Origin: a virus
Reading direction: 5' to 3' (one strand)
DNA length: 31,632 bases
IMG/VR virus record: IMGVR_UViG_3300025646_000197
Coordinates: 1 to 31,632 of that record
Below the pieces are notes generated by a model, which was given only the letters and a program-made list of their open reading frames with translations, searched no databases and was not told where the DNA came from. Below, one piece after another: positions 1,930-23,924 of this stretch. The translations under genes and the position numbers were made by a program. Position 1 is the stretch's first letter, and the number at the start of each line of letters is the position of its first letter.

Positions 1930-3009
1930 ATGAAAATAGCATTATTAAATGATACACATTTTGGAGTACGAAATGATAGTACTGCATTTGCAGATTATCA
2001 ATTAAAATTTTATAAAAATATATTTTTTCCTTATTTAAAAGAACATAATATAAAAACACTTATTCATTTAGGTGACGTAGTTGATCGTAGAAAATTTATA
2101 AACTTTCAAACAGCAGAAACTTTTAGAAAAGAGTTTTTTGAAATATTATGGAAAGAAAAAATTGATACACATATTATATTAGGTAACCACGATACCTATT
2201 ACAAAAACACAAATTCAATAAACGCAATTAAAGTTTTATACACTACATTTGATGGTGTACACGAACCTTTTATTTACGAACACGCACAAGAGGTAGAGAT
2301 AGGTGGATTAAAAATGTTATTTCTTCCTTGGATATGTGATGATAATGAAAAACATACTATGGAATTAATCAAATCTACAGACGCACAAGTTGTTATGGGT
2401 CATTTAGAAATTAAAGGTTTTGAAATGCACAATGGACAACAAAACTTTCACGGTTTTGATAAAGAGTTTTTTAATAAATTTGATATGGTAATGTCTGGTC
2501 ATTTTCATAAAAGATCAAACAACAATCACATTTATTACTTAGGCGCTCAATATGAAATGACTTGGTCAGACTTTAAAGACCCAAAAGGTTTTAATGTATT
2601 TGATACTGAAACTAGAGAACTCACTCATATTAAAAATCCTTATACAATTCATAAAAAAATATTTTATGATGATACAAAAGAAGATTACACAAACAAAGAT
2701 ATAACAGAATACGATCATCACTTAGTCAAACTTATTGTGGTTAATAAATCAGATAAAAAAATGTTTGAAACATATGTTGAAAAGTTTTATCAAAATAGTA
2801 AAGTACACGAATTAAATATTATAGAAGACTTTAAAGAATTTGATACTTCTTCCGTAAGTGATAACGTAGTAGATATATCTGAAGATACAGTTACACTATT
2901 AAATGGTTATATAGATCAAATAGATACACCTTTAGATAAACAAAAGTTAAAAAATTTTATGAAGTCATTATATAATGAAGCAGGAGAAACAGGAGGAGAT
3001 ACAGTATGA
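1930..3009 (+). CDS. 47: Recombination nuclease subunit gp47 (SbcD/Mre11-like)
   Basis: The 359-residue protein has all metallophosphoesterase motifs of the Mre11/SbcD family in order: N-D-T-H (residues 7-10), G-D-V-V-D-R (48-53), G-N-H-D (85-88), G-H (157-158) and G-H-F-H (190-193). T4 gp47 is 339 residues, so this is full length. With gp46 it forms the nuclease/ATPase that resects DNA ends for recombination-dependent replication and helps degrade host DNA. The gp46 partner follows at 3637, separated by an oxygenase gene that starts within the last codons of this one (ATGA). Confidence 0.95.
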   Translation: MKIALLNDTHFGVRNDSTAFADYQLKFYKNIFFPYLKEHNIKTLIHLGDVVDRRKFINFQTAETFRKEFFEILWKEKIDTHIILGNHDTYYKNTNSINAIKVLYTTFDGVHEPFIYEHAQEVEIGGLKMLFLPWICDDNEKHTMELIKSTDAQVVMGHLEIKGFEMHNGQQNFHGFDKEFFNKFDMVMSGHFHKRSNNNHIYYLGAQYEMTWSDFKDPKGFNVFDTETRELTHIKNPYTIHKKIFYDDTKEDYTNKDITEYDHHLVKLIVVNKSDKKMFETYVEKFYQNSKVHELNIIEDFKEFDTSSVSDNVVDISEDTVTLLNGYIDQIDTPLDKQKLKNFMKSLYNEAGETGGDTV

Positions 3010-3650
3010 AATATGAATTAGATAGAATGGTTATACATCCACTATGGCCAACAAATGTATATGCTTTAAAAACTGAAGACTTAAATTTAATGCCAGTTAT
3101 TCAACAAGAAAAAGTAAAAGAAATAGGTCGTAACAGATCAAACGTTGGTGGTTATCAATCACATCAACATATGGATAAAGTTGTAGGATTTAAACCTCTA
3201 ATAGAACAGATTACAAAATTTTTTAGAACAATAAAACAAATACCAGGTTATGATACAATACAAGATATTCAAATACCTCAAATGTGGTTTAACATAAACA
3301 CAAGAGGTAACTATAATGAAATACACAACCACGGAAATCAATATCAGTTTTCTGGAACTTATTATGTTAAAGTTCCAAACAAGTGTGGAAGAATATGTTT
3401 TAGAGACCCACGTCAAGGTGCTGTTTCTAACGAATTTCATTTTAGATATTCACAAGTAAATTTTGGAACAAATTATCACGCAACTTTTAAATTTCCTGTT
3501 GAAGAAAATTTATTAGTAATTTTTCCTTCTTTCTTAGAACACTATGTTGAAGCAAGTAATACAGATGAAGAAAGAGCATCCATTTCGTTTGACATATGCG
3601 TAAGAACAAATGACTTTAAAGGTTTTGTAACTAAAGATGATATTTTTTAA
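3006..3650 (+). CDS. Putative 2OG-Fe(II) oxygenase (2OG-FeII_Oxy_5 type)
   Basis: This 214-residue protein fits the 2OG-FeII_Oxy_5 (TIGR02466-like) double-stranded beta-helix family. The first iron-ligand region is E-I-H-N-H-G with H107 and H109, followed by the S-G-T-Y-Y-V-K strand and a C-G-R-I-C-F-R-D-P turn. The distal ligand is H179 in P-S-F-L-E-H-Y-V, and the 2OG-binding arginine is in E-E-R-A-S-I-S-F-D. Members couple 2-oxoglutarate decarboxylation to hydroxylation of an unknown substrate. It overlaps gp47 by 4 bp and gp46 by 14 bp, so it is embedded in the 47-46 operon and would be co-translated with it. Confidence 0.82.
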   Translation: MKYELDRMVIHPLWPTNVYALKTEDLNLMPVIQQEKVKEIGRNRSNVGGYQSHQHMDKVVGFKPLIEQITKFFRTIKQIPGYDTIQDIQIPQMWFNINTRGNYNEIHNHGNQYQFSGTYYVKVPNKCGRICFRDPRQGAVSNEFHFRYSQVNFGTNYHATFKFPVEENLLVIFPSFLEHYVEASNTDEERASISFDICVRTNDFKGFVTKDDIF

Positions 3651-5346
3651 AAAATGTAGATGGAAGAACTTTCTATCAACTGGCGATCAGTTTATAGAAG
3701 TTGACTTTTTAAAGTCTCCTTTAACATTAATTGTAGGTAATAATGGTGCAGGTAAATCAACTTTACTTGACGCATTGTGTTTTTCTCTATTTAATAGACC
3801 ATTTAGAAAACTTAAAAAAGATCAATTAGTTAACTCTATTAATGACAAAGATTGTCTTATAGAAGTAGAGTTTAAAATAGGCACAAAAGAATATTTAATT
3901 AGAAGAGGAATAAAACCTAATTTATTTGAGATATTTGAAAACGGTGAACTGTTAAATCAGGATGCTACAACAACAGATTATCAAAAAGTATTAGAAAACA
4001 ATATAATGAAACTTAATTACAGATCATTTATACAAGTTGTTATACTTGGTTCTTCTTCTTATGAACCTTTTATGAAATTAGGTGCTAGATATAGAAGAGA
4101 AGTTGTTGAAGAGATATTAGATATAAGAGTTTTCAGTTTAATGGATATAATACTAAGAACTAGACAAGGTGATCTATCAAAAGAATTAATTGAAATGGAA
4201 CACAATGTAAAACTATTAGATGAAAAATATAACATAAAATTAGATTACTTTAATAAAGCAAAAGATCAAAGTACTTTACAAACAAATGAATTGCGAAAAG
4301 ACTTAGAAGAAGCACAGATAGAACTAAAAAAATATACAGAAACAGTAATAAGACAAAGACAAGAAGTAGATTTTTTAAATTCAACAATAGAAGATAAAAA
4401 AGATATTATTAATAAAATAAAAAAGTTAGAATCTTTAGAAGCAAAAGTTGAGAACAATGCTATGAAACTTAAAAAAGATTTAGACTTCTTTAATGAAAAT
4501 GATGATTGTCCTGTATGTAAACAAAGTATAGAAGAAGATTATAAAAGTCATATGATTAAACATAAAAAAGAAACAATAACAAATGTTGAATCAGGTTTAA
4601 AAAAATTAATAGATGAAGTTGTAATAAATGAAAATAGATTAAATTCAATACACACAATAGAAGAAAAAGCAAGAACTTACGATATAGCAATTGCAAAAAA
4701 TACTTCTTCCATATCATCATTAGAAAATCAAATACATAATCTTAATTCTAAATTAGAAAGTATTACAAATAATAAAGATGATGTTATAAAACTAGAAGCA
4801 GAATTAGAACAAATTAAAGTATTATTAGCAGAAGCAAAAGAAAAGTTACAAAAAGAAAGTAGTTTAAAAGAATATATTGATACAGCAAGAGGATTACTAA
4901 ATGATGAAGGTATTAAAGCAAAAATAATTAAAAAATACTTAGACCCTATGAATCAATTAATCAACAAGTATTTACAAGCAATGGATTTTTTTATATCGTT
5001 TCATTTAGATGAACAGTTTAAAGAAACTATAAAAAGTAGAGGTAGAGAAGACTTTAGTTACGAAAACTTTAGTGAAGGTGAAAAGATGAGAATAGATTTA
5101 GCGTTACTGTTTACTTGGAGACAGATTGCTAAAATGAAAAATAGTACAAATACAAACTTATTAATACTAGATGAAATATTTGATAGTAGTTTAGATATGC
5201 AAGGTACTGATTTCTTTTTTAAACTAATAAAATCTTTACCAAAAGAAAATGTTTTTATTATATCACACAAAGGAGATATATTATTTGATAAATTTACAAA
5301 TATAATTAAATTTGAAAAAGATAGAAATTTCACAAAACAAATATGA
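3637..5346 (+). CDS. 46: Recombination nuclease ATPase gp46 (SbcC/Rad50-like)
   Basis: The 569-residue protein starts with an ABC-type half ATPase domain carrying Walker A G-N-N-G-A-G-K-S-T (residues 34-42). Long coiled-coil arms follow on either side of a zinc-hook C-P-V-C at 291-294. The C-terminal lobe has the ABC signature F-S-E-G-E-K-M-R (from ~478), Walker B L-L-I-L-D-E (508-513) and an S-H-K switch histidine. This is the Rad50/SbcC architecture, and T4 gp46 is of similar length (~560). It partners gp47. Start overlaps the upstream oxygenase by 14 bp; the stop overlaps the next ORF by 4 bp. Confidence 0.95.
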   Translation: MIFFKKCRWKNFLSTGDQFIEVDFLKSPLTLIVGNNGAGKSTLLDALCFSLFNRPFRKLKKDQLVNSINDKDCLIEVEFKIGTKEYLIRRGIKPNLFEIFENGELLNQDATTTDYQKVLENNIMKLNYRSFIQVVILGSSSYEPFMKLGARYRREVVEEILDIRVFSLMDIILRTRQGDLSKELIEMEHNVKLLDEKYNIKLDYFNKAKDQSTLQTNELRKDLEEAQIELKKYTETVIRQRQEVDFLNSTIEDKKDIINKIKKLESLEAKVENNAMKLKKDLDFFNENDDCPVCKQSIEEDYKSHMIKHKKETITNVESGLKKLIDEVVINENRLNSIHTIEEKARTYDIAIAKNTSSISSLENQIHNLNSKLESITNNKDDVIKLEAELEQIKVLLAEAKEKLQKESSLKEYIDTARGLLNDEGIKAKIIKKYLDPMNQLINKYLQAMDFFISFHLDEQFKETIKSRGREDFSYENFSEGEKMRIDLALLFTWRQIAKMKNSTNTNLLILDEIFDSSLDMQGTDFFFKLIKSLPKENVFIISHKGDILFDKFTNIIKFEKDRNFTKQI

Positions 5347-5819
5347 AGATAATAGATAATTTTTTACCAAAGGAGATATATACGGAAGTATATAATAGAA
5401 TGATATATAGATTTCCTTGGTTCTATACAGATAGAGTAACAGATGATTCTGAAGGACAACATTTTCTATTTCAACATTTCTTTGTAGATGAGGAAAATAT
5501 ATGTAGTGATAGATTTGATGATATTATTATTCCACTATTAGGACCTTTATCATATACAAAACTTTTAAGAATTAAAGCAAACTGTTATACTCGTACTGAA
5601 AAAACAATAGAGCATAACTTTCATACAGATCATACTTTCAAACATACCGTTGGATTGTATTCTATAAATACTAATAACGGTTATACGTTGTTTGAAGACG
5701 GAACTAAAGTTGAATCTGTTGCAAATAGAATGTGTATATTTGATGGTTTATTAAAACATAAGAGTTGCACACAAACAGATGAGAAGTTAAGACTTAACAT
5801 TAACTTCAATTATATTTAG
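5343..5819 (+). CDS. Putative prolyl-hydroxylase-like 2OG-Fe(II) oxygenase
   Basis: A 158-residue single-domain protein. It has the full ligand set of a 2OG-Fe(II) dioxygenase: H-T-D (H94, D96), a distal H139 in L-L-K-H-K-S-C and a following arginine in K-L-R-L-N-I-N-F. The opening I-I-D-N-F-L-P-K-E resembles the start of prolyl-4-hydroxylase-like phage proteins. It overlaps gp46 by 4 bp. Its layout is mirrored by the protein at 7138, which has lost the metal ligands. Substrate is unknown; peptide/protein hydroxylation is the usual reaction for this subtype. Confidence 0.78.
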   Translation: MKIIDNFLPKEIYTEVYNRMIYRFPWFYTDRVTDDSEGQHFLFQHFFVDEENICSDRFDDIIIPLLGPLSYTKLLRIKANCYTRTEKTIEHNFHTDHTFKHTVGLYSINTNNGYTLFEDGTKVESVANRMCIFDGLLKHKSCTQTDEKLRLNINFNYI

Positions 5820-6451: not shown

Positions 6452-7138
6452 ATGGAACAACAAATGGAAGTACAATTACCTTTTGGACCTGCTATAATGA
6501 TAGGAAAAGTGCCAGAAGATATTTTTAGTTTATTACAAAAATATACAGATCAAGTTAAAGGTGATGGTTTTAATGATTATAGAGATAAGTTAGCAGGCAA
6601 TATTGCTGAAGAATATGATCTAATGACTTCTATGATTAAAAATAACGAGTTTATGCCTGTTTCAAAATATCTTTTAGATTTAGCAGATGGTTATATTGAT
6701 TTTTTAGTAAATACAAAAAGAATAATTTTTAATAGTGAAGTTGATAGTGTAAGTCACTATAATAGTGGTAGCAGACCTATGGTATTACAAAGTCTATGGG
6801 TAAACTTTCAAAAAAAATATGAATTTAATCCTCTACATAATCATACTGGAATATTTTCGTTTGTAACTTATTTAAAAGTACCTTACAAAATGGAAGACGA
6901 AGCAAAATTGCCACATCAAAAAGGTAACTCACCAAATGCAGGAAAGATAACATTTCAAGCAGGAGATTATGATTATGCTCCAGTTTCAAAAGAATATATA
7001 CCAGAAGTGCAAAAGATTATCTTTTTTCCAGCACAACTAAAACACTATGTATATCCATTTTATACTAGTGATGAAGAAAGAATATCAATATCAGGCAACA
7101 TTGTTGTTGATCCAAGAGTTGATTTAAAAAAGAAATAA
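6452..7138 (+). CDS. Putative 2OG-Fe(II) oxygenase (2OG-FeII_Oxy_5 type)
   Basis: A 228-residue protein preceded by a strong AAGGAG Shine-Dalgarno. Residues ~117-131 carry the family strand S-L-W-V-N-F-Q and then F-N-P-L-H-N-H-T-G with H129 and H131. The distal histidine is H198 in A-Q-L-K-H-Y-V, followed by the E-E-R-I-S-I-S-G-N arginine motif. About 90 residues precede the beta-helix, longer than in the gene at 3006, and contain no motif I recognise. The stop overlaps the next start (TAATG). Substrate unknown. Confidence 0.82.
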   Translation: MEQQMEVQLPFGPAIMIGKVPEDIFSLLQKYTDQVKGDGFNDYRDKLAGNIAEEYDLMTSMIKNNEFMPVSKYLLDLADGYIDFLVNTKRIIFNSEVDSVSHYNSGSRPMVLQSLWVNFQKKYEFNPLHNHTGIFSFVTYLKVPYKMEDEAKLPHQKGNSPNAGKITFQAGDYDYAPVSKEYIPEVQKIIFFPAQLKHYVYPFYTSDEERISISGNIVVDPRVDLKKK

Positions 7139-7638
7139 TGATTGAATATTACGAAAATATAATACCACCTATTATACAAAAAGAAATAGAAGAGACTTTA
7201 TCAGACGAGAATTTTAGTTGGTTTTTAAAAGAAAAAGATAAACAACATCATTTTGAACACATATTATTTCATAATGGTTTGATTAATTCTTCTTTTTATG
7301 ATATAATAGTTAAACCTATTGTATCTATTGTGGATTCTAAAACTGAATTGGATATTAGTAATATGATTTACGCTAAAGCAATTTGCAATTCAAATACGAA
7401 ACAACTCAACTTGGAATGGGCGTATGATGTATATACATTAATATATTGCGTTAATGATACACTTTCAGATATAATAGTAAACGTTGAAGAGGAAGATAAT
7501 TTACAAGATATAGAATGTAAAAAAGGTAAGATATTTTTAACAGATAATCAAAGCATAATTAATATGCCAACAGTATCTGGTAATAAAAAAATTATATTAA
7601 TACAGTTTGCTAAACTAAAAACGAAAGAGATAAAATGA
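7138..7638 (+). CDS. Degenerate 2OG-oxygenase-like protein, probable pseudoenzyme
   Basis: The 166-residue product follows the same path as the oxygenase at 5343: an opening with I-I-P-P-I-I-Q-K-E where that protein has F-L-P-K-E, a W-F segment, an I-I-V-K-P-I segment like I-I-I-P-L-L, and an A-K-A-I-C-N-S strand where it has I-K-A-N-C-Y-T. Where the H-x-D pair should be it reads L-E-W-A-Y-D-V-Y-T, and the distal H is replaced in I-I-N-M-P. It would therefore not bind iron in the usual way. The ORF is intact and coupled on both sides (1-bp and 4-bp overlaps), so it is maintained and not a broken gene. Assignment is by side-by-side reading only. Confidence 0.6.
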   Translation: MIEYYENIIPPIIQKEIEETLSDENFSWFLKEKDKQHHFEHILFHNGLINSSFYDIIVKPIVSIVDSKTELDISNMIYAKAICNSNTKQLNLEWAYDVYTLIYCVNDTLSDIIVNVEEEDNLQDIECKKGKIFLTDNQSIINMPTVSGNKKIILIQFAKLKTKEIK

Positions 7639-8768
7639 AACCGTGGCAAAAAGGCATTGAATTAGATTATTTAAAGAAAATAGAAAAGATGTTTTCTAGT
7701 TATAATAACTTTGCACAACACGAATTATCTAAATTCAAAAAAAATAATATTGCTGATGCTTTTAGTAAAGATGAAATAATGATAATAGGTGAAACTTTAT
7801 TACATTATAAAGAAGTTAAAAGACCAGGACCTTTAAATATGTTTCCAGGTATAACATTTGCACACAAGAAACCTGGAGATATAGTAATAGAACATTTAGG
7901 ATATAAAACTGAAAACGATAAACAAACATTAGTTGAGGTATTAAGAGATACGGATGAGTTTTTAAGTAAAGATGTTTGGGTTTATGCACACGAAGAAAAT
8001 GAAGAAGACAAAGAAGTATTAAGACGTGCTAACTTTTATAAAGTAGGAACTAGATTTAATTCACTTGCTGATATTATAGGTGTTTATTTTAGAGAAGCAA
8101 AAGAAAATTTATTTGAGTCTAAAAGAACTTTTATAGAAGTGCCTGAATATGAAACTTATACATTAAAACAATTTAATTTAGATTTTTCTAAACAAGTTAA
8201 AAAGATACAAGAAAGACTTGAAGATTTAGATTTAACATTTACAAATCATTATTCAAATTATAATAAAGGTAAGTCTTGGAGTGCTATTTCATTAAGAGGT
8301 TATACTGACAGTCCAAATTTTATAACTAAACCTATTGAAATGAATAAGAAGTGGCAAGAAGAACACAAAGATGAACATTTTGAAATGAGAGATACTTCAA
8401 TGAGATCAAAGTTTCCAGAAGTTGAAGAGATACTTTCAAAGTTTAAAACTGAAATACATAGAGTTAGATTTATGAAATTAAAACCTGGAGGAGGCGAACT
8501 TGAAAGACATACAGATCAAGTCGATCCAGATGTTGGTATAATTAATGGTAAACTTATGAGAATACACGTACCTATAAAAACAAATGATAAAGTAGAGTTT
8601 ACTAGTTGGTCTCCAGAAGGCGAGAAAACAATAGTAAATATGAAAGAAGGATCAGTTTGGTATTTGGATATTAGAAAACCACATACAGCAATTAATAATG
8701 GAGATACAGAAAGAACTCATTTAGTAATAGATGTGGTAGCAAATGATTCAGTTAGAGGTATGTTATAA
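7635..8768 (+). CDS. GNAT-like domain fused to Asp/Asn beta-hydroxylase-like oxygenase
   Basis: This 377-residue protein looks bipartite. Residues ~1-155 contain alternating strands and helices (F-A-H-K-K-P-G-D-I-V-I, a V-W-V-Y-A-H-E-E-N strand, then a R-R-A-N-F-Y-K-V-G-T strand) like an acetyltransferase (GNAT) fold; the acetyl-CoA loop is not clear, so this is inference. Residues ~200-377 are a 2OG-Fe(II) dioxygenase resembling the aspartyl/asparaginyl beta-hydroxylase family: R-H-T-D (H292, D294), K-P-H-T-A-I-N (H350) and E-R-T-H-L-V-I-D with the 2OG arginine. It overlaps both neighbours by 1-4 bp in the oxygenase island. The combination suggests two-step modification of one substrate. Confidence 0.68.
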   Translation: MKPWQKGIELDYLKKIEKMFSSYNNFAQHELSKFKKNNIADAFSKDEIMIIGETLLHYKEVKRPGPLNMFPGITFAHKKPGDIVIEHLGYKTENDKQTLVEVLRDTDEFLSKDVWVYAHEENEEDKEVLRRANFYKVGTRFNSLADIIGVYFREAKENLFESKRTFIEVPEYETYTLKQFNLDFSKQVKKIQERLEDLDLTFTNHYSNYNKGKSWSAISLRGYTDSPNFITKPIEMNKKWQEEHKDEHFEMRDTSMRSKFPEVEEILSKFKTEIHRVRFMKLKPGGGELERHTDQVDPDVGIINGKLMRIHVPIKTNDKVEFTSWSPEGEKTIVNMKEGSVWYLDIRKPHTAINNGDTERTHLVIDVVANDSVRGML

Positions 8769-9325
8769 TGACAACAACAGAAATGTTTGGTGTGCCATTT
8801 TATTATGGCGATTTTAATGCTGAAGATATATCATTAGATTATAAGTTAGATACTAAATGGAGATCAGAAACTCCTTCATCTTTTAATGTTGTTAATACTT
8901 TAGATAAGACAAGTGCTGAAAAATTATTAAAAGAAATATCTAACTATACAAATACAGTAATTAGAGTACCGCATAGATTGAGATTACAGGAATGTTGGAG
9001 AAATGAATACGGATATAGAGATCAACAAGAAGTACATTTACACGCACACTCTCATTTTTCATTTACAATATTTAAAGATATACCAAAAGATTGCGGTAAT
9101 ATAGTTTTCTTTCATCCAGCAAAAGACTTAATGTACAATTTTGAAGAAAAGGATATGTTAATACAAGAAATATCACCACAACCTAAACCTAATAAATTAT
9201 TAATATGGCCTTCATTTATAAAACATATGGTAACTCCAAACAATAATAAGACTGAAAAAAGAGTTACATATTCTGGAAATGTTTGGATAGAAAGATTTGA
9301 ACAAAATGAAAATAACAAACTTTGA
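8768..9325 (+). CDS. Putative 2OG-Fe(II) oxygenase (2OG-FeII_Oxy_5 type)
   Basis: A 185-residue protein starting in the TAATG of the previous gene. The ligand region is unusually histidine-rich: E-V-H-L-H-A-H-S-H-F-S-F, with histidines at 90, 92, 94 and 96, so which pair binds iron cannot be told from sequence alone. A C-G-N-I-V-F-F-H-P strand follows. The distal histidine is H153 in P-S-F-I-K-H-M-V, then E-K-R-V-T-Y-S-G-N with the arginine. Its length and ending match the other members here. Substrate unknown. Confidence 0.8.
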   Translation: MTTTEMFGVPFYYGDFNAEDISLDYKLDTKWRSETPSSFNVVNTLDKTSAEKLLKEISNYTNTVIRVPHRLRLQECWRNEYGYRDQQEVHLHAHSHFSFTIFKDIPKDCGNIVFFHPAKDLMYNFEEKDMLIQEISPQPKPNKLLIWPSFIKHMVTPNNNKTEKRVTYSGNVWIERFEQNENNKL

Positions 9326-9857
9326 GACAAGTCTATACGTAAATCAGATAAAAGAACATCAATCAAACAAACATAATTTGTTAAAACTGATTGATGAAAT
9401 GCCAGATAATCAATATACTAGAGACGATCAAACAATCACTAAAACTGATTGGAACGTACCTTCAGACAGGCATAGAGACTATTTAACGGCGTTTTATCGT
9501 ATGATTGCACCATACTATGATAATATAATGAAAACTTTAAAATTCACTAAATGGGAAATATATAATGGATGGTTTCAACAATATATCAAATCAGACTATC
9601 ACAGTTGGCACGTACATCCAACAGGAAACTATACAAATGTTTATTATCTGGAAATGCCAGAATATGAAATGAAAACTGAAATTTATAATACAGCAACAAA
9701 TGATATTGTTTATATTGATGTAAGAGAAGGAGACTTAATAACGTTTCCTGCTTTTTTACATCACAGATCGCCATTAATACATAGTGATAAAAGAAAAACA
9801 ATTATATCTTTTAATTCAAGTTTTGATTGTGTAGATTTAGATAAAATGGTAAAATGA
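9306..9857 (+). CDS. Putative 2OG-Fe(II) oxygenase
   Basis: The frame is open from a TTG at 9297, but the ATG at 9306 gives a natural start (M-K-I-T-N-F-E-T) and a short overlap with the previous gene, so I use it (183 residues). Iron-ligand region: Y-H-S-W-H-V-H-P-T-G with H102 and H104, then the N-V-Y-Y-L strand. Distal: E-G-D-L-I-T-F-P-A-F-L-H-H-R with H152/H153, then D-K-R-K-T-I-I-S-F-N. The protein belongs to the same broad family as its neighbours but is divergent from them. It ends in an ATGA overlap with the 78-residue ORF that opens the PLP/methyltransferase group. Confidence 0.8.
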   Translation: MKITNFETSLYVNQIKEHQSNKHNLLKLIDEMPDNQYTRDDQTITKTDWNVPSDRHRDYLTAFYRMIAPYYDNIMKTLKFTKWEIYNGWFQQYIKSDYHSWHVHPTGNYTNVYYLEMPEYEMKTEIYNTATNDIVYIDVREGDLITFPAFLHHRSPLIHSDKRKTIISFNSSFDCVDLDKMVK

Positions 9858-10090
9858 AAAAAAAGAAAACTTATATACACGTAAACCAACACGTAATAAG
9901 GAGTAATAAGAAACACAATGAAAACAAACCTGTTATCACAGTTAAACAAGGATCTAAAAATACTTACTGCCACGAGGTGGCGATTAAAGGTGAAAGTCGC
10001 ATTATGTATGGCGGTAATGATAAACCTCTTTTATCTTGTGGTGCTCGTGTCGTAATAGAAACTGAAAGTGAAGTAGAGATTATAAAATGA
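9854..10090 (+). CDS. Conserved small protein of unknown function
   Basis: The 78-residue product begins K-K-K-K-T-Y-I-H-V-N-Q-H-V-I-R-S-N and ends C-G-A-R-V-V-I-E-T-E-S-E-V. I recall small proteins with this H-V-N-Q-H-V-I-R start and C-G-A-x-V-x-I-E-T end in many unrelated phages and bacteria, always without a function. The spacing of glycines and beta-branched residues suggests a small all-beta domain. It is coupled by ATGA overlaps both to the upstream oxygenase and to the PLP enzyme downstream, which hints at a joint role with the latter. Confidence 0.7.
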   Translation: MKKKKTYIHVNQHVIRSNKKHNENKPVITVKQGSKNTYCHEVAIKGESRIMYGGNDKPLLSCGARVVIETESEVEIIK

Positions 10091-10839
10091 AAGAATATGA
10101 ATTTCCTAAAATACAAATAGAAGAATATGACGGTATACACGTAGTTAGAGACGATTTATTAGAAGGTGGAAGTAAAAGAAGATTTATAGACAGATATATT
10201 AGAGAACAAGTTTCTAAAGGTGTAAATGAATTTGTATTTGGTGGTTGTCCTGCAACAGGATATGCTCAAATGTCTCTAACATTACAAGCAAAACAATACG
10301 GCGCTAAATCAACTTTCTTTATGGCAAAAAGAAATTTAAACAATCTCCACGAGTATCAAAAGAAAGCATTAGAATATGGCGCTAATATACAATGGGTTAA
10401 TATGGGTATGTTAAATGTTACAATGAGTCGTGCTAAAAAATACTATGAAGAAGACACGAATCATAGATGTATATTTCCATTAGGGTTGGAACACCCATAT
10501 GTTATTGAGGATATTGAGAGACTTGCAAAATCTATCAAAATATGGTATAATAAACCTATAACTGAAATATGGTCAGTTGGGTCAAGTGGGACACTCTCAC
10601 GTGGGTTGCAAAACGCATTTCCAGACTTACCTGTATATGTAGTTTCAGTAGGACACAAAATGAAAGATAGAGAAATAGGTAGAGCAAAAATGTTTAGATC
10701 ACCTTATAAGTTTGATAAACCAATTAAAAAAGAAGAAGCACCACCATTTCCGTCAGCACCAACATATGACGCTAAAGCGTGGCCATTTATTAAACAGTAT
10801 GCTAAACCAGGTGCCTTATTTTGGAATGTAGGAAAATGA
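10087..10839 (+). CDS. Fold-type II PLP-dependent enzyme (ACC deaminase / D-cysteine desulfhydrase-like)
   Basis: The 250-residue protein resembles the tryptophan-synthase-beta fold PLP family. R-D-D-L-L-E-G-G-S-K-R-R (residues 21-32) matches the RDDL..GGNK block of ACC deaminase-like enzymes and puts K30 as the PLP Schiff-base lysine. G-S-S-G-T (165-169) is the phosphate-binding loop, and V-V-S-V-G-H follows. It is shorter than the ~330-residue free-standing enzymes and the C-terminal part is reduced. It overlaps the methyltransferase gene at 10836 by 4 bp, so the two are very likely made together. Substrate is unknown; supply or attachment of an amino-acid-derived group to DNA is a hypothesis based on context. 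Confidence 0.72.
   Translation: MKEYEFPKIQIEEYDGIHVVRDDLLEGGSKRRFIDRYIREQVSKGVNEFVFGGCPATGYAQMSLTLQAKQYGAKSTFFMAKRNLNNLHEYQKKALEYGANIQWVNMGMLNVTMSRAKKYYEEDTNHRCIFPLGLEHPYVIEDIERLAKSIKIWYNKPITEIWSVGSSGTLSRGLQNAFPDLPVYVVSVGHKMKDREIGRAKMFRSPYKFDKPIKKEEAPPFPSAPTYDAKAWPFIKQYAKPGALFWNVGK
10523..10551 (+). promoter_or_regulatory. Possible sigma70-type promoter inside the PLP gene
   Basis: TTGCAA (10523-10528), a 17-bp spacer and TATAAT (10546-10551) in the extended form TGGTATAAT. It lies about 280 bp upstream of the methyltransferase start and could give that gene extra transcription. The -35 is imperfect and the site is inside coding sequence, so this is tentative. Confidence 0.35.
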
Positions 10840-11981
10840 AATTAATTAATGAAAAATCAACTGCTGTACTAAACTTTGATTTAGGAGAAAATAAAGAATT
10901 AGTTACTAGACACGGTTCATTAAAAAAGAAAACAAATATTAGTGATGAACAATTAAGTAAACAAATTGATATAGTTTATGATTATTGGAAACAAAGAGGA
11001 TTTCCTTATTACAATACTGATAAGGTATGGAGAGAAAGTAAGTTTAGAGAATTACAAAAAACTGATATAAAAAATTTACTTGATTTAAAAACAAAACATA
11101 TTAAACCTAATCAACTTGGTCTATCACTTGCTTGGTCATATATGCCACATAGTTTTGGTATTCGTTGTGGTAAAATGAAAACTCCAATGGAGATATATCA
11201 AAACGAAGAACATTTTAAAAAAGGTATTAAGAAATTATTAACAGGTAGTTTTTTTGTAAAACAATCCGTAGATCAATTAGCACCTATTTCAACAAATTTA
11301 TATGGAGAAATAACAGAAACATCTCCAGAAGCAAAACATAAATCAGAAAGTACTATGAGGTCTTTATTGAGAAGATATACAGGTACACAATGCGTATCTA
11401 ATTTTAGACCTACTGCTGCCGCTTGTTTATATCAACACTTTGCTAAACCAGGAGATACTATCCAAGATATGTCTATGGGTTATGGTGGTAGAATATTAGG
11501 TGCAATTATATCAGATGTAAATTACATAGGTACAGACCCAGCAACTCCAACATTTAAAGGTTTAACTGAAATAAAAAATAACTTTGGTAGAAAAGATAGA
11601 ATGTATCAATTACATCAATTAGGAAGTGAAGTTTTTGTACCTGAAAAAGAAAGTATAGACTTTGCGTTTACAAGTCCACCTTATTTTAATTGGGAACAAT
11701 ATTCAGATGATGAAGGACAATCATTTAAACAGTTTAGTACTAACGAAGATTGGAATAATGGGTTTCTAAGAAAGACAATACAAAACGTTAAACACGGTTT
11801 AAAACCAGGTAAGATTATGGCATTAAACGTTGCCAATATTAAGTCTCATAAAACGTTTGAAAACGATACAGTTGAAATTGCAAAAAGTGAAGGTTTTGAA
11901 CATATAGATACCTTTAAATTATTACTATCATCACAAGAATCATCATTAAAATTTGAACCAGTTTTCATATTCAGAAAATAA
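10836..11981 (+). CDS. DNA amino-methyltransferase-like protein (SPPY motif) with novel N-terminal region
   Basis: The ATG at 10836, in an ATGA overlap with the PLP gene, is preferred to the upstream in-frame TTG at 10821 (381 residues). The C-terminal ~195 residues form a class I methyltransferase: S-N-F-R-P-T-A-A precedes the SAM-binding motif I-like D-M-S-M-G-Y-G-G-R-I-L-G (211-222), and the catalytic T-S-P-P-Y (279-283) is the N4-cytosine/N6-adenine type. The first ~170 residues (with Y-W-K-Q-R-G-F-P-Y-Y and S-L-A-W-S-Y-M-P-H) match no domain I know and may read the target or bind the partner. The gene is intact and ends just before a terminator. Confidence 0.8.
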   Translation: MKLINEKSTAVLNFDLGENKELVTRHGSLKKKTNISDEQLSKQIDIVYDYWKQRGFPYYNTDKVWRESKFRELQKTDIKNLLDLKTKHIKPNQLGLSLAWSYMPHSFGIRCGKMKTPMEIYQNEEHFKKGIKKLLTGSFFVKQSVDQLAPISTNLYGEITETSPEAKHKSESTMRSLLRRYTGTQCVSNFRPTAAACLYQHFAKPGDTIQDMSMGYGGRILGAIISDVNYIGTDPATPTFKGLTEIKNNFGRKDRMYQLHQLGSEVFVPEKESIDFAFTSPPYFNWEQYSDDEGQSFKQFSTNEDWNNGFLRKTIQNVKHGLKPGKIMALNVANIKSHKTFENDTVEIAKSEGFEHIDTFKLLLSSQESSLKFEPVFIFRK

Positions 11982-12011: not shown

Positions 12012-12040
12012 AAAAAGCAAGTAAAATCAATGCTTTTTTT
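12012..12040 (+). terminator. Probable intrinsic terminator
   Basis: AAAAAGCA (12012-12019) pairs perfectly with TGCTTTTT (12031-12038) across an 11-nt loop, and the 3' arm runs on into more T. It separates the methyltransferase gene from the VWA gene and sits at the upstream edge of the repeated promoter-region element. The stem is A/T-rich, so its strength is uncertain; the second repeat copy has a mismatch here. Confidence 0.55.
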
Positions 12041-21992: not shown

Positions 21993-22444
21993 ATGAGGAA
22001 AAAGGTAGATACGATATAAGCAATATGCTTGAAGTCGTATTAAAACAACCAGATGATTTCCTTAAAGTAAGAGAGACTTTAACTAGAATTGGTGTTGCAA
22101 GTCGTAAAGACAAAACACTATTTCAATCGTGTCATATATTACACAAACAAGGTAAATACTATATCGTACACTTTAAAGAACTTTTTGCTTTAGACGGAAA
22201 AAAATCTACAATAGTAGAAAACGATATAGAACGAAGAAATACAATAGCAGGATTATTATCTGATTGGAAATTAATTGAAATAGTTAATGAAGAACAATCA
22301 AGTAAAAGAGCGCCATTGTCTCAAATCAAAGTAATAGCATTTAAGAATAAAAAAGAATGGAACTTGCAAGCGAAATATAATATTGGAAAGAAAAAAGGTG
22401 AAGAGACACAAGGTGATAATTTAAATGCAGATACCAAAGTTTAA
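21989..22444 (+). CDS. regA: Translational repressor RegA
   Basis: The core (residues ~13-130) follows T4 RegA closely: L-K-Q-P-D-D-F-L-K-V-R-E-T-L-T-R-I-G, then Q-S-C-H-I-L, Y-Y-I-V-H-F-K-E and A-G-L-L-S-D-W-K-L-I-E-I-V, and V-I-A-F-K-N-K-K-E-W. RegA binds early mRNAs near the start codon and stops their translation, including its own and those of 44, 45 and 62 in T4. At 151 residues it is longer than T4 RegA (122), with an N-terminal extension of ~11 residues and a polar tail. The RimK-like gene starts 20 bp before its stop. Confidence 0.95.
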   Translation: MNEEKGRYDISNMLEVVLKQPDDFLKVRETLTRIGVASRKDKTLFQSCHILHKQGKYYIVHFKELFALDGKKSTIVENDIERRNTIAGLLSDWKLIEIVNEEQSSKRAPLSQIKVIAFKNKKEWNLQAKYNIGKKKGEETQGDNLNADTKV

Positions 22445-23924
22445 AGATTTTTTTGTAGAACAAGATTTAGAACGTAAAGATAAACCTATTACGGTTGCTA
22501 TTATAACTAAATCTAATCCTAAAGTTAAAACACAAAAAGCAGGTCAACCTAATAAAAAAGAACTTACTGTTGCTTTAATAGAAAAGGCGTGTAAGAAAAA
22601 AGGTTTTGATTGTATTATTATTAATACAAAGTATGCTATCATCACAGGTAAAGACGAAGAAAAAAATACACTTACAGTTTATAACTATGATGGTAAAGAT
22701 AGTGAACATACTTTCATAGGTAAAGATACAGTTTGTATTACAAGAGCAGGTGCTGCTGAAGATGAGGCAGGTCTTTCTTTAATATCAGCATTTCAAAACT
22801 CATCAGCATTTATGGTCAACACAAGAGCGGCAATGCTTACGTGTTCAAACAAATTAACATCAGCACTATTATTTGAGAAGTTTAATATACCTACACCAAG
22901 AACTGCTTTTATTACTAACGAAAAAAATATAGATGACGCAGTAAAATTAATAGGTAATAAGTTTCCTGTTATTATTAAAACACTTACAGGCACACAAGGT
23001 ATTGGTGTAATCAAATCTGAAAGTTATGAATCATTAGTATCTACAATACAGGCATTATGGAAATATGACGCTGAATTATTAATCCAAGAATATATGCCAA
23101 CTAAATTTGATGTTAGAACTTTTGTAGTAGATAATAAAATATTTGCTTCAACTAAAAGAATACATAGTGGTTATGACTTTAGATCAAATACACATAGAGG
23201 TGCTGAAGCACAACCATATAAATTAAGTGAAGAAGAAAAAGAAGTTGTTTTGAGAGCAAGTAGAATTTCAAAAGCATATATGGTAGGTGTAGATCACATT
23301 ATATTTAATAATAAAATTCACGTATTAGAAATAAATGGTAGTCCAGGTTCAGGTGCTGATTACGAAGGTTATCAGTACAAAGATTATTATTCTGATCCAG
23401 AACCAACAGGTAGAATTAACGGTGAAACTTTAATGTCTAATTTTATAGATTGGGTTTCAAAAAGAAATCATTGGGATAGACAAGCATTAAGTGAAGTTGG
23501 TTGGTTAGAAACAGTTGACATAACAGATGTTGGTAAAGTTAGAGCAAAATTTGATACAGGTAATGGTTCAAAGGCGTGTGCTTTACACGCTGATGAGATT
23601 TTAGAAGAAAATAAAAAAATTATTAAATGGAAATATGATGGCAAAACAATTACTAAACCAAGACACGGTACAAGTGAAGTTTATAGAGCAAACGCTGATG
23701 GCGAAGAACCATCGGAAACAAGACCTACAGTTTTAATGGATATAACTTTTAATGGTTTTACTTATAAAGATATTGAAGTTGGATTAGATAGTAGACCAAG
23801 GTCAGGTTCAGATTTATTAGTTAATAGAGATTTAATGAGACAAATGAATGTTAGTGTAAATCCTAATAGAACGTTTGTACAAAGTAAAAGAATGAAACCA
23901 GTTGAAAAGAAAAATGGATTATAA
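22425..23924 (+). CDS. RimK-type ATP-grasp ligase fused to RimB-type aspartic protease domain
   Basis: A 499-residue protein. Residues ~20-340 are an ATP-grasp domain of RimK type: P-V-I-I-K-T-L-T-G-T-Q-G-I-G-V supplies the nucleotide lysine and glycine loop, and V-L-E-I-N-G-S-P-G (E303, N305) binds metal. RimK adds glutamates to the C-terminus of ribosomal protein S6. The C-terminal ~140 residues contain A-K-F-D-T-G-N-G-S-K (D377) and match the retropepsin-like 'ATP-dependent Zn protease'/RimB family (DUF785). In bacteria these are separate gene products; here they are one. The start overlaps regA by 20 bp. Other ATP-grasp substrates, such as small peptides, cannot be excluded. Confidence 0.87.
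   Translation: MQIPKFKDFFVEQDLERKDKPITVAIITKSNPKVKTQKAGQPNKKELTVALIEKACKKKGFDCIIINTKYAIITGKDEEKNTLTVYNYDGKDSEHTFIGKDTVCITRAGAAEDEAGLSLISAFQNSSAFMVNTRAAMLTCSNKLTSALLFEKFNIPTPRTAFITNEKNIDDAVKLIGNKFPVIIKTLTGTQGIGVIKSESYESLVSTIQALWKYDAELLIQEYMPTKFDVRTFVVDNKIFASTKRIHSGYDFRSNTHRGAEAQPYKLSEEEKEVVLRASRISKAYMVGVDHIIFNNKIHVLEINGSPGSGADYEGYQYKDYYSDPEPTGRINGETLMSNFIDWVSKRNHWDRQALSEVGWLETVDITDVGKVRAKFDTGNGSKACALHADEILEENKKIIKWKYDGKTITKPRHGTSEVYRANADGEEPSETRPTVLMDITFNGFTYKDIEVGLDSRPRSGSDLLVNRDLMRQMNVSVNPNRTFVQSKRMKPVEKKNGL

Follow-up and report, generated by a model that had tools for sequence, protein, structure and literature searches.

Enzymes that depend on pyridoxal phosphate (PLP) are already known from phage DNA hypermodification, where the thymidine-modifying cassettes of Pseudomonas phage M6 and Salmonella phage ViI contain a PLP enzyme (PMC9476957, PMC6336734) and work on a handle provided by 5-hydroxymethyldeoxyuridine (5-hmdU), a kinase and an amino acid:DNA transferase. 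The nearest published logic to the system described here is that of CmoA, CmoX and CmoY in the formation of 5-carboxymethylcytosine, in which a DNA methyltransferase (MTase) homologue, often ParB-linked, sets a non-methyl handle that is tailored further (PMC12783734). CmoX is a C5-MTase with an SPPC motif that is fed by carboxy-S-adenosylmethionine (carboxy-SAM), and its authors found no candidates for N4 or N6 carboxymethyltransferases (PMC12783734). Phage bases are also hypermodified by Mom, a GNAT-fold enzyme that acts without PLP and forms N6-carbamoylmethyladenine. Here we describe a gene pair in a 31.6-kb virus fragment with a T4-like replication block (IMG/VR record IMGVR_UViG_3300025646_000197, positions 1 to 31,632, hereafter the window), in which a short PLP enzyme of the same superfamily as those of the thymidine cassettes is encoded next to an SPPY amino-MTase-like protein of the N4/N6 type, with no amino acid:DNA transferase beside it. 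We consider it probable that these two proteins act jointly on phage DNA as parts of one hypermodification pathway.

The AlphaFold2 model of the window PLP protein (predicted local distance difference test, pLDDT, 95.3) had a D-cysteine desulfhydrase as its top Foldseek match (E 5e-12), further matches including a 1-aminocyclopropane-1-carboxylate (ACC) deaminase homologue, CJ0600, TrpB and CysK, with TM(query) values of 0.73-0.79. On the basis of this model, the protein is a shortened fold-type-II enzyme of the ACC deaminase/D-cysteine desulfhydrase branch, predicted to bind PLP and to catalyze a PLP-dependent reaction. It has the fold, the lysine, the phosphate loop and the C-terminal tyrosine motif of those enzymes, but the phage family is tied to an MTase and is about 75 residues shorter, with 250 residues in the window protein compared to about 325 in the nearest solved relatives. 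A first-pass annotation made from the sequence had described the enzyme as shortened with its lysine (Lys30) and GSSGT loop (residues 165-169) retained, which we confirm. At least 567 relatives were found in viral contigs and 35 in bacterial genome contigs, the latter mostly prophage-like, and Lys30, Gly168, Tyr227, Asp228, Lys230 and Trp232 were invariant in 98 of 98 relatives, with Ser167 of the phosphate loop present in 94. When the relative from Mycobacterium phage Vincenzo was aligned to the ACC deaminase homologue 1j0a, GGSK at Lys30 fell on GGNK and YDAKAW fell on the DPVYTGKA active-site motif of ACC deaminase-type enzymes, and therefore the shortening spares recognizable active-site motifs. 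In the Pfam scan the window PLP protein itself had no match, PF00291 included, and PF00291 was above cut-off for relatives P0001 and P0002 and for those of M6 and Vincenzo.

The MTase-like protein carries motif I (DMSMGYGGR), TSPPY and a region of about 170 N-terminal residues that has no family above noise in Pfam, PHROGs or NCBIfam; the first-pass annotation had described the two motifs and an N-terminal region of no known domain. PF01555 was just detected (27.8 bits against a cut-off of 26.7) and spans residues 274-359 only, and the AlphaFold2 model (pLDDT 84.5) led by Foldseek to class I MTases, with Trm11 and TYW2 appearing alongside many other methyltransferases. Among window-type MTases, Asp211, Gly215, Gly217, Gly218 and Arg219 of motif I were invariant (27/27). 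Across partner MTases more generally, the SAM motif I and its acidic partner are conserved, and motif IV, readable in 96 of them, is TSPPY in 71 and SCPPY in 23, instead of the SPPC motif of CmoX. CmoA was not seen among the annotated neighbors, on which no CmoA profile was run. By its family profile and motifs I and IV the protein is assigned to the DNA N4/N6 amino-methyltransferases, with methyl transfer to DNA as one possible activity. It shares PF01555 and both motifs with the orphan N4/N6 DNA methyltransferases of phages, including those fused to ParB (ParB-MTases), and differs in the extra N-terminal region of the window type and in the recurrent partners described below. The cysteine of SCPPY was considered as a mark of hypermodification and rejected, as lone ParB-MTases (phiFL3A, B054, HCTV-2) share this motif.

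With loci that had short flanks left out of the counts, an MTase gene lay within 3 kb of the PLP gene in 63 of 69 informative viral loci and in 23 of 28 genome loci. The partners were of three types, namely the window type (about 360 residues), a 530-residue type and ParB-MTases, and in most prophages with ParB-MTases the MTase gene overlaps the PLP gene by 4 bases. In Erythrobacter phages R6L and ZS04 and in Pseudanabaena phage Pam4, the two activities are found in a single chain with the order ParB, MTase motif I half, PLP domain and MTase SCPPY half. The PLP domain is inserted at an identical point in R6L/ZS04 and in Pam4, between MTase motifs I and IV, and the Erythrobacter and Pam4 PLP domains nevertheless fall on different sides of the PLP tree. 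The R6L protein was described only as CcrM-like (PMC5463345), and we found no description of PLP-amino-MTase coupling or fusion, or of the decarboxylase alternative presented below, in the open-licence literature, although an earlier mention in Iyer 2013 is possible. Homologues that never occur together had been named beforehand as grounds for abandoning the idea of a module; for the PLP and MTase genes, recurrence together is what was found.

The PLP family is also homologous to the PLP enzyme of the M6 thymidine cassette. A profile hidden Markov model of the window family, searched against 271 open reading frames (ORFs), recovered one of phage M6 at 56.5 bits (E 3.7e-17), with the same C-terminal signature and a match that includes PFPCNPFYDLKAW...FWNIG. 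In M6 this gene directly follows that for the amino acid:DNA transferase (PF18724, E 1e-46) and precedes that for a radical SAM protein, and the M6-like phage SN1 is listed with a cassette of these enzyme classes too (PMC9476957). The PLP enzyme adjoining a ParB-MTase in Mycobacterium phages Vincenzo and AlanGrant shares 34% identity with its counterpart in Glutamicibacter phage Montesquieu, whose gene adjoins an annotated aGPT-PPlase; an amino acid:DNA transferase neighbors the PLP gene in both M6 and Montesquieu. Matches to the Vincenzo/AlanGrant enzyme extend to 335 phage records, 158 of them Salmonella phages, and in the related Dickeya phage PP35 a PLP enzyme is among the conserved 5-hmdU genes (PMC6336734). 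In the PLP tree (IQ-TREE, midpoint root), MTase-linked and thymidine-cassette-linked enzymes alternate, requiring at least about three changes of partner. Lee et al. (2018 and 2021) reportedly describe the thymidine-cassette enzymes as decarboxylases that depend on PLP and use amino acids joined to 5-hmdU as substrates. None of the window proteins scanned was an amino acid:DNA transferase, a 5-hmdU kinase or a thymidylate synthase-like hydroxymethylase.

Four further loci (L091, L109, L110 and L111) encode PLP homologues without an MTase, accompanied by two uncharacterized genes (c51, c83) and by c41 (phrog_13881); L109 also has a gene resembling thymidylate synthase nearby. These neighborhoods possibly represent another thymidine hypermodification cassette. 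The uncharacterized genes adjoining PLP in L091 and L109-L111 were suspected by eye to encode an amino acid:DNA transferase, an identity set aside as they had no Pfam or informative PHROG match.

Additional evidence comes from ParB-MTases, the sister class of the window type, for which a viral scan gave 79 informative loci. In Pseudomonas phage ZRG1 (L207:1856-3701) the gene overlapping the ParB-MTase encodes an AdoMet decarboxylase, SpeD (PF02675, E 1.6e-23), and directly 3′ of the ParB-MTase in the 79 loci there was a SpeD-like gene in 46 (mostly overlapping), a PLP gene in 4, both in none and neither in 29. With prophage PLP loci added, SpeD occurred in 0 of 29 loci with PLP and in 46 of 75 without (Fisher 8e-10), for loci that are phylogenetically non-independent and with p 0.027 from the viral scan alone. 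Motif I changes along with the partner: SpeD-linked MTases carry FAGD[ST]VFG (D in 48/48, F in 47/48), PLP-linked ones carry FAGGSVRG (G in 29/29, R in 28/29), lone ones have mostly GGSVRG (R in 30/34), and Arg219 of the window type likewise stands at the end of motif I. The shift from GG.VRG to GD.VFG may reflect a change of donor in the SpeD-linked MTases, since decarboxylated SAM would have no carboxylate for the arginine to hold. In Croceibacter phage P2559S (L290:2356-3997) the MTase gp66 overlaps SpeD gp67, and the P2559S AdoMet decarboxylase restored spermidine in an E. coli speD mutant (PMC9992855). The phage ParB-MTases that are followed by SpeD (among loci L210-L289, in P2559S and in ZRG1) are possible DNA aminopropyltransferases. 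In Haloarcula tailed virus HCTV-2 (L204:1739-3967), the ParB-MTase is followed by a second AdoMet-MTase gene, another type of partner.

The neighbors of window-type MTases show a comparable pattern, with a PLP gene alone in 18 loci, a weakly GNAT-like gene alone in 23, both in 1 and neither in 22, so that the two are largely mutually exclusive. The GNAT assignment of this gene (d15) is weak, with E 0.003 for the best PDB profile match and 0.04 for the PHROG acetyltransferase. The interchangeability of PLP enzyme, AdoMet decarboxylase and GNAT-like protein as partners lends indirect support to the earlier suggestion that the MTase-like protein may do something other than plain methylation. Further candidates for tailoring enzymes were found in the same gene runs. 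In L016:1445-4853 and L019, PLP, a glycosyltransferase-like gene, MTase and a carbamoyltransferase (PF02543 in L016) form an overlapping run; glycosyltransferase-like proteins c14 and c40 are found within PLP/MTase runs. A glycosyltransferase identity for c14, based only on a motif noted by eye and having no Pfam or PDB sequence match, was rejected. A Mom-like DNA modification gene (L024:11050-11649, phrog_1384, E 3e-7) overlaps the MTase 3′ end, and a gene resembling 3′-phosphoadenosine 5′-phosphosulfate (PAPS) reductase lies between PLP and MTase in L077:8663-9412 (PF01507 E 7e-42), with a relative in L087:3716-4396. Such neighbors would make more sense if the MTase left a functional group than if it left a methyl.

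In the pathway that we propose, the MTase homologue would flip out the target base, with SPPY pointing to an exocyclic amine, either N4 of cytosine or N6 of adenine, as the acceptor, and would use SAM to install a 3-amino-3-carboxypropyl group, keeping the amino-acid part of SAM, for which TYW2 is the precedent. The PLP enzyme would then form an aldimine via Lys30 with the amino group of the DNA-linked amino acid and decarboxylate or otherwise reshape it, a role also reported for PLP enzymes of its superfamily in thymidine hypermodification. Further decoration may come, in some phages, from glycosyltransferase-, GNAT-, carbamoyltransferase- or Mom-like enzymes. We infer that DNA is the substrate, and likewise the group transferred, the order of the steps and the PLP reaction. 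We lean towards the view that the PLP enzyme tailors a group placed on DNA by the MTase homologue; aminocarboxypropyl transfer followed by PLP tailoring is put forward tentatively as the specific chemistry, its grounds being the exchange of PLP for SpeD, the kinship to the thymidine cassettes and the TYW2 precedent. More speculatively, a widespread class of phage "DNA methyltransferases" may not methylate at all and may instead place on a base amine the aminocarboxypropyl group of SAM or, where SpeD is the partner, an aminopropyl group from decarboxylated SAM. Decarboxylation by SpeD ahead of transfer and by the PLP enzyme following it would then be interchangeable routes that both lead to an aminopropyl-type base.

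An alternative that we regard as unlikely is that the MTase makes ordinary N4-methylcytosine or N6-methyladenine while the PLP enzyme travels along as a metabolic helper, for example in amino-acid metabolism related to SAM or S-adenosylhomocysteine, or in sulfur or nucleotide-precursor metabolism. The intact motifs I and IV, the occurrence of the same MTase classes alone in Enterococcus phage phiFL3A, Listeria phage B054 and many contigs, and the resemblance of the PLP fold to amino-acid lyases are all in keeping with it, but a PLP domain placed within the MTase chain, the recurrence of the pair in unrelated phages and the kinship to M6-type cassettes would be hard to explain. Rather less likely again, the PLP enzyme could alter SAM first, in the manner of CmoA or SpeD, and the MTase could then move the non-methyl group so formed to DNA. 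A published case of altered SAM coupled to a DNA transferase is CmoA-CmoX (PMC12783734), and the sister MTases have as their alternative partner SpeD, whose substrate is SAM; however, PLP-linked MTases share the glycine and arginine of motif I with lone MTases while those linked to SpeD are changed, which suggests unaltered SAM as the donor, and enzymes of this superfamily from M6 and Ackermannviridae belong to pathways that reportedly act on DNA-linked amino acids. Finally, the PLP enzyme could form an aminoacrylate for beta-replacement, as CysK or TrpB do, and directly couple an amino acid to a thiol or a base, with the MTase domain serving just to bind and flip the base. Fold type II does include TrpB and CysK, and the PAPS reductase-like genes in L077 and L087 would suit such a route, but the conserved SAM motif I and acidic partner make it seem that SAM chemistry is used, and we judge this improbable.

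Several observations weigh against tailoring by the PLP enzyme of a group placed by the MTase homologue. Window-type MTases often have no PLP gene within 6 kb, and the MTase is usable without the PLP enzyme; obligate mutual dependence was therefore rejected, as MTases of the same class are found without PLP, and the PLP step would be an addition rather than a requirement. The label of phrog_7093 is "threonine dehydratase," and the substrate could be a free metabolite. No SpeD was found near window-type MTases, such that the SpeD evidence comes from the sister ParB class, in which the SpeD-linked motif I could be a clade marker instead of a change of donor, and some of the SpeD homologues in phages decarboxylate arginine or ornithine (PMC9992855, PMC10407285).

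If the proposed pathway is correct, hundreds of genes annotated in phages as ordinary DNA methylases or as threonine dehydratases would build an undescribed base modification, made by SAM and PLP chemistry and probably directed against host restriction, and their products would be enzymes that place a reactive amine on DNA. As the pair or its SpeD variant is present in cultured phages (Mycobacterium Vincenzo/AlanGrant, Erythrobacter R6L/ZS04, Pseudanabaena Pam4, Microcystis Mae-JY30, Croceibacter P2559S and Pseudomonas ZRG1), this is directly testable.

The coordinates of the window features are listed in the table below.

Table. Features of the PLP/MTase region of the window
Feature	Position	Strand	Evidence
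2-oxoglutarate (2OG)-Fe(II) oxygenase, overlaps small ORF	9297..9857	+	PF13759 E 5e-10; phrog_81
Small protein, 78 aa, phrog_8676; overlaps neighbors, not conserved core	9854..10090	+	
PLP-dependent fold-type-II enzyme, short form, 250 aa, phrog_7093	10087..10839	+	PHROG E 9e-33
Codon of Lys30 (GGSK), predicted PLP-binding lysine	10174..10176	+	
GSSGT phosphate-binding loop, residues 165-169	10579..10593	+	
YDAKAW C-terminal motif, residues 227-232	10765..10782	+	
DNA amino-methyltransferase-like protein, 381 aa from ATG, proposed base-modifying transferase	10836..11981	+	
MTase motif I region DMSMGYGGR with invariant Arg219	11466..11492	+	
MTase motif IV TSPPY	11670..11684	+	

The first-pass annotation had grouped the small ORF, the PLP gene and the MTase gene as one possible hypermodification module, joined by ATGA overlaps and closed by a terminator. 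Both junctions are indeed 4-base ATGA overlaps (an alternative MTase start, TTG at 10821, is possible), and the PLP/SPPY MTase unit is supported by its recurrent adjacency, two sets of fusions and the M6 homology. The small protein as a core member and the terminator are not supported. Of 80 viral loci, only about 8 have a phrog_8676 gene near PLP, and such genes also adjoin MTases that lack PLP, and a three-gene unit was rejected as the small ORF is neither constant nor PLP-specific. The A/T-rich hairpin 3′ of the MTase gene (about 12012-12040) was no better than shuffled sequences (z -0.76) and was absent from the list of the terminator scan. Nor is the trio a free-standing operon, because the run of overlapping genes begins at least as far upstream as 6452 (6452-7138, 7138-7638, 7635-8768, 8768-9325 and 9297-9857), and four of these genes, all but 7138-7638, encode 2OG-Fe(II) or Asp/Asn-hydroxylase-like proteins and lead into the PLP gene.

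Together with 3006-3650, the window encodes five such oxygenases, and an Asp/Arg-hydroxylase-like family is also found upstream of PLP in many related loci. The genes at 5343-5819 and 7138-7638 carry the phrog_274 label "DNA endonuclease V," which may be wrong, as relatives look by eye more like small 2OG oxygenases. The replication block comprises gp47- and gp46-like SbcD/SbcC, a sliding clamp, a clamp loader and a DNA polymerase, and between the clamp-loader and polymerase genes a RimK-like protein (22425-23924, phrog_2599), possibly an ATP-grasp ligase, could be an amide ligase.

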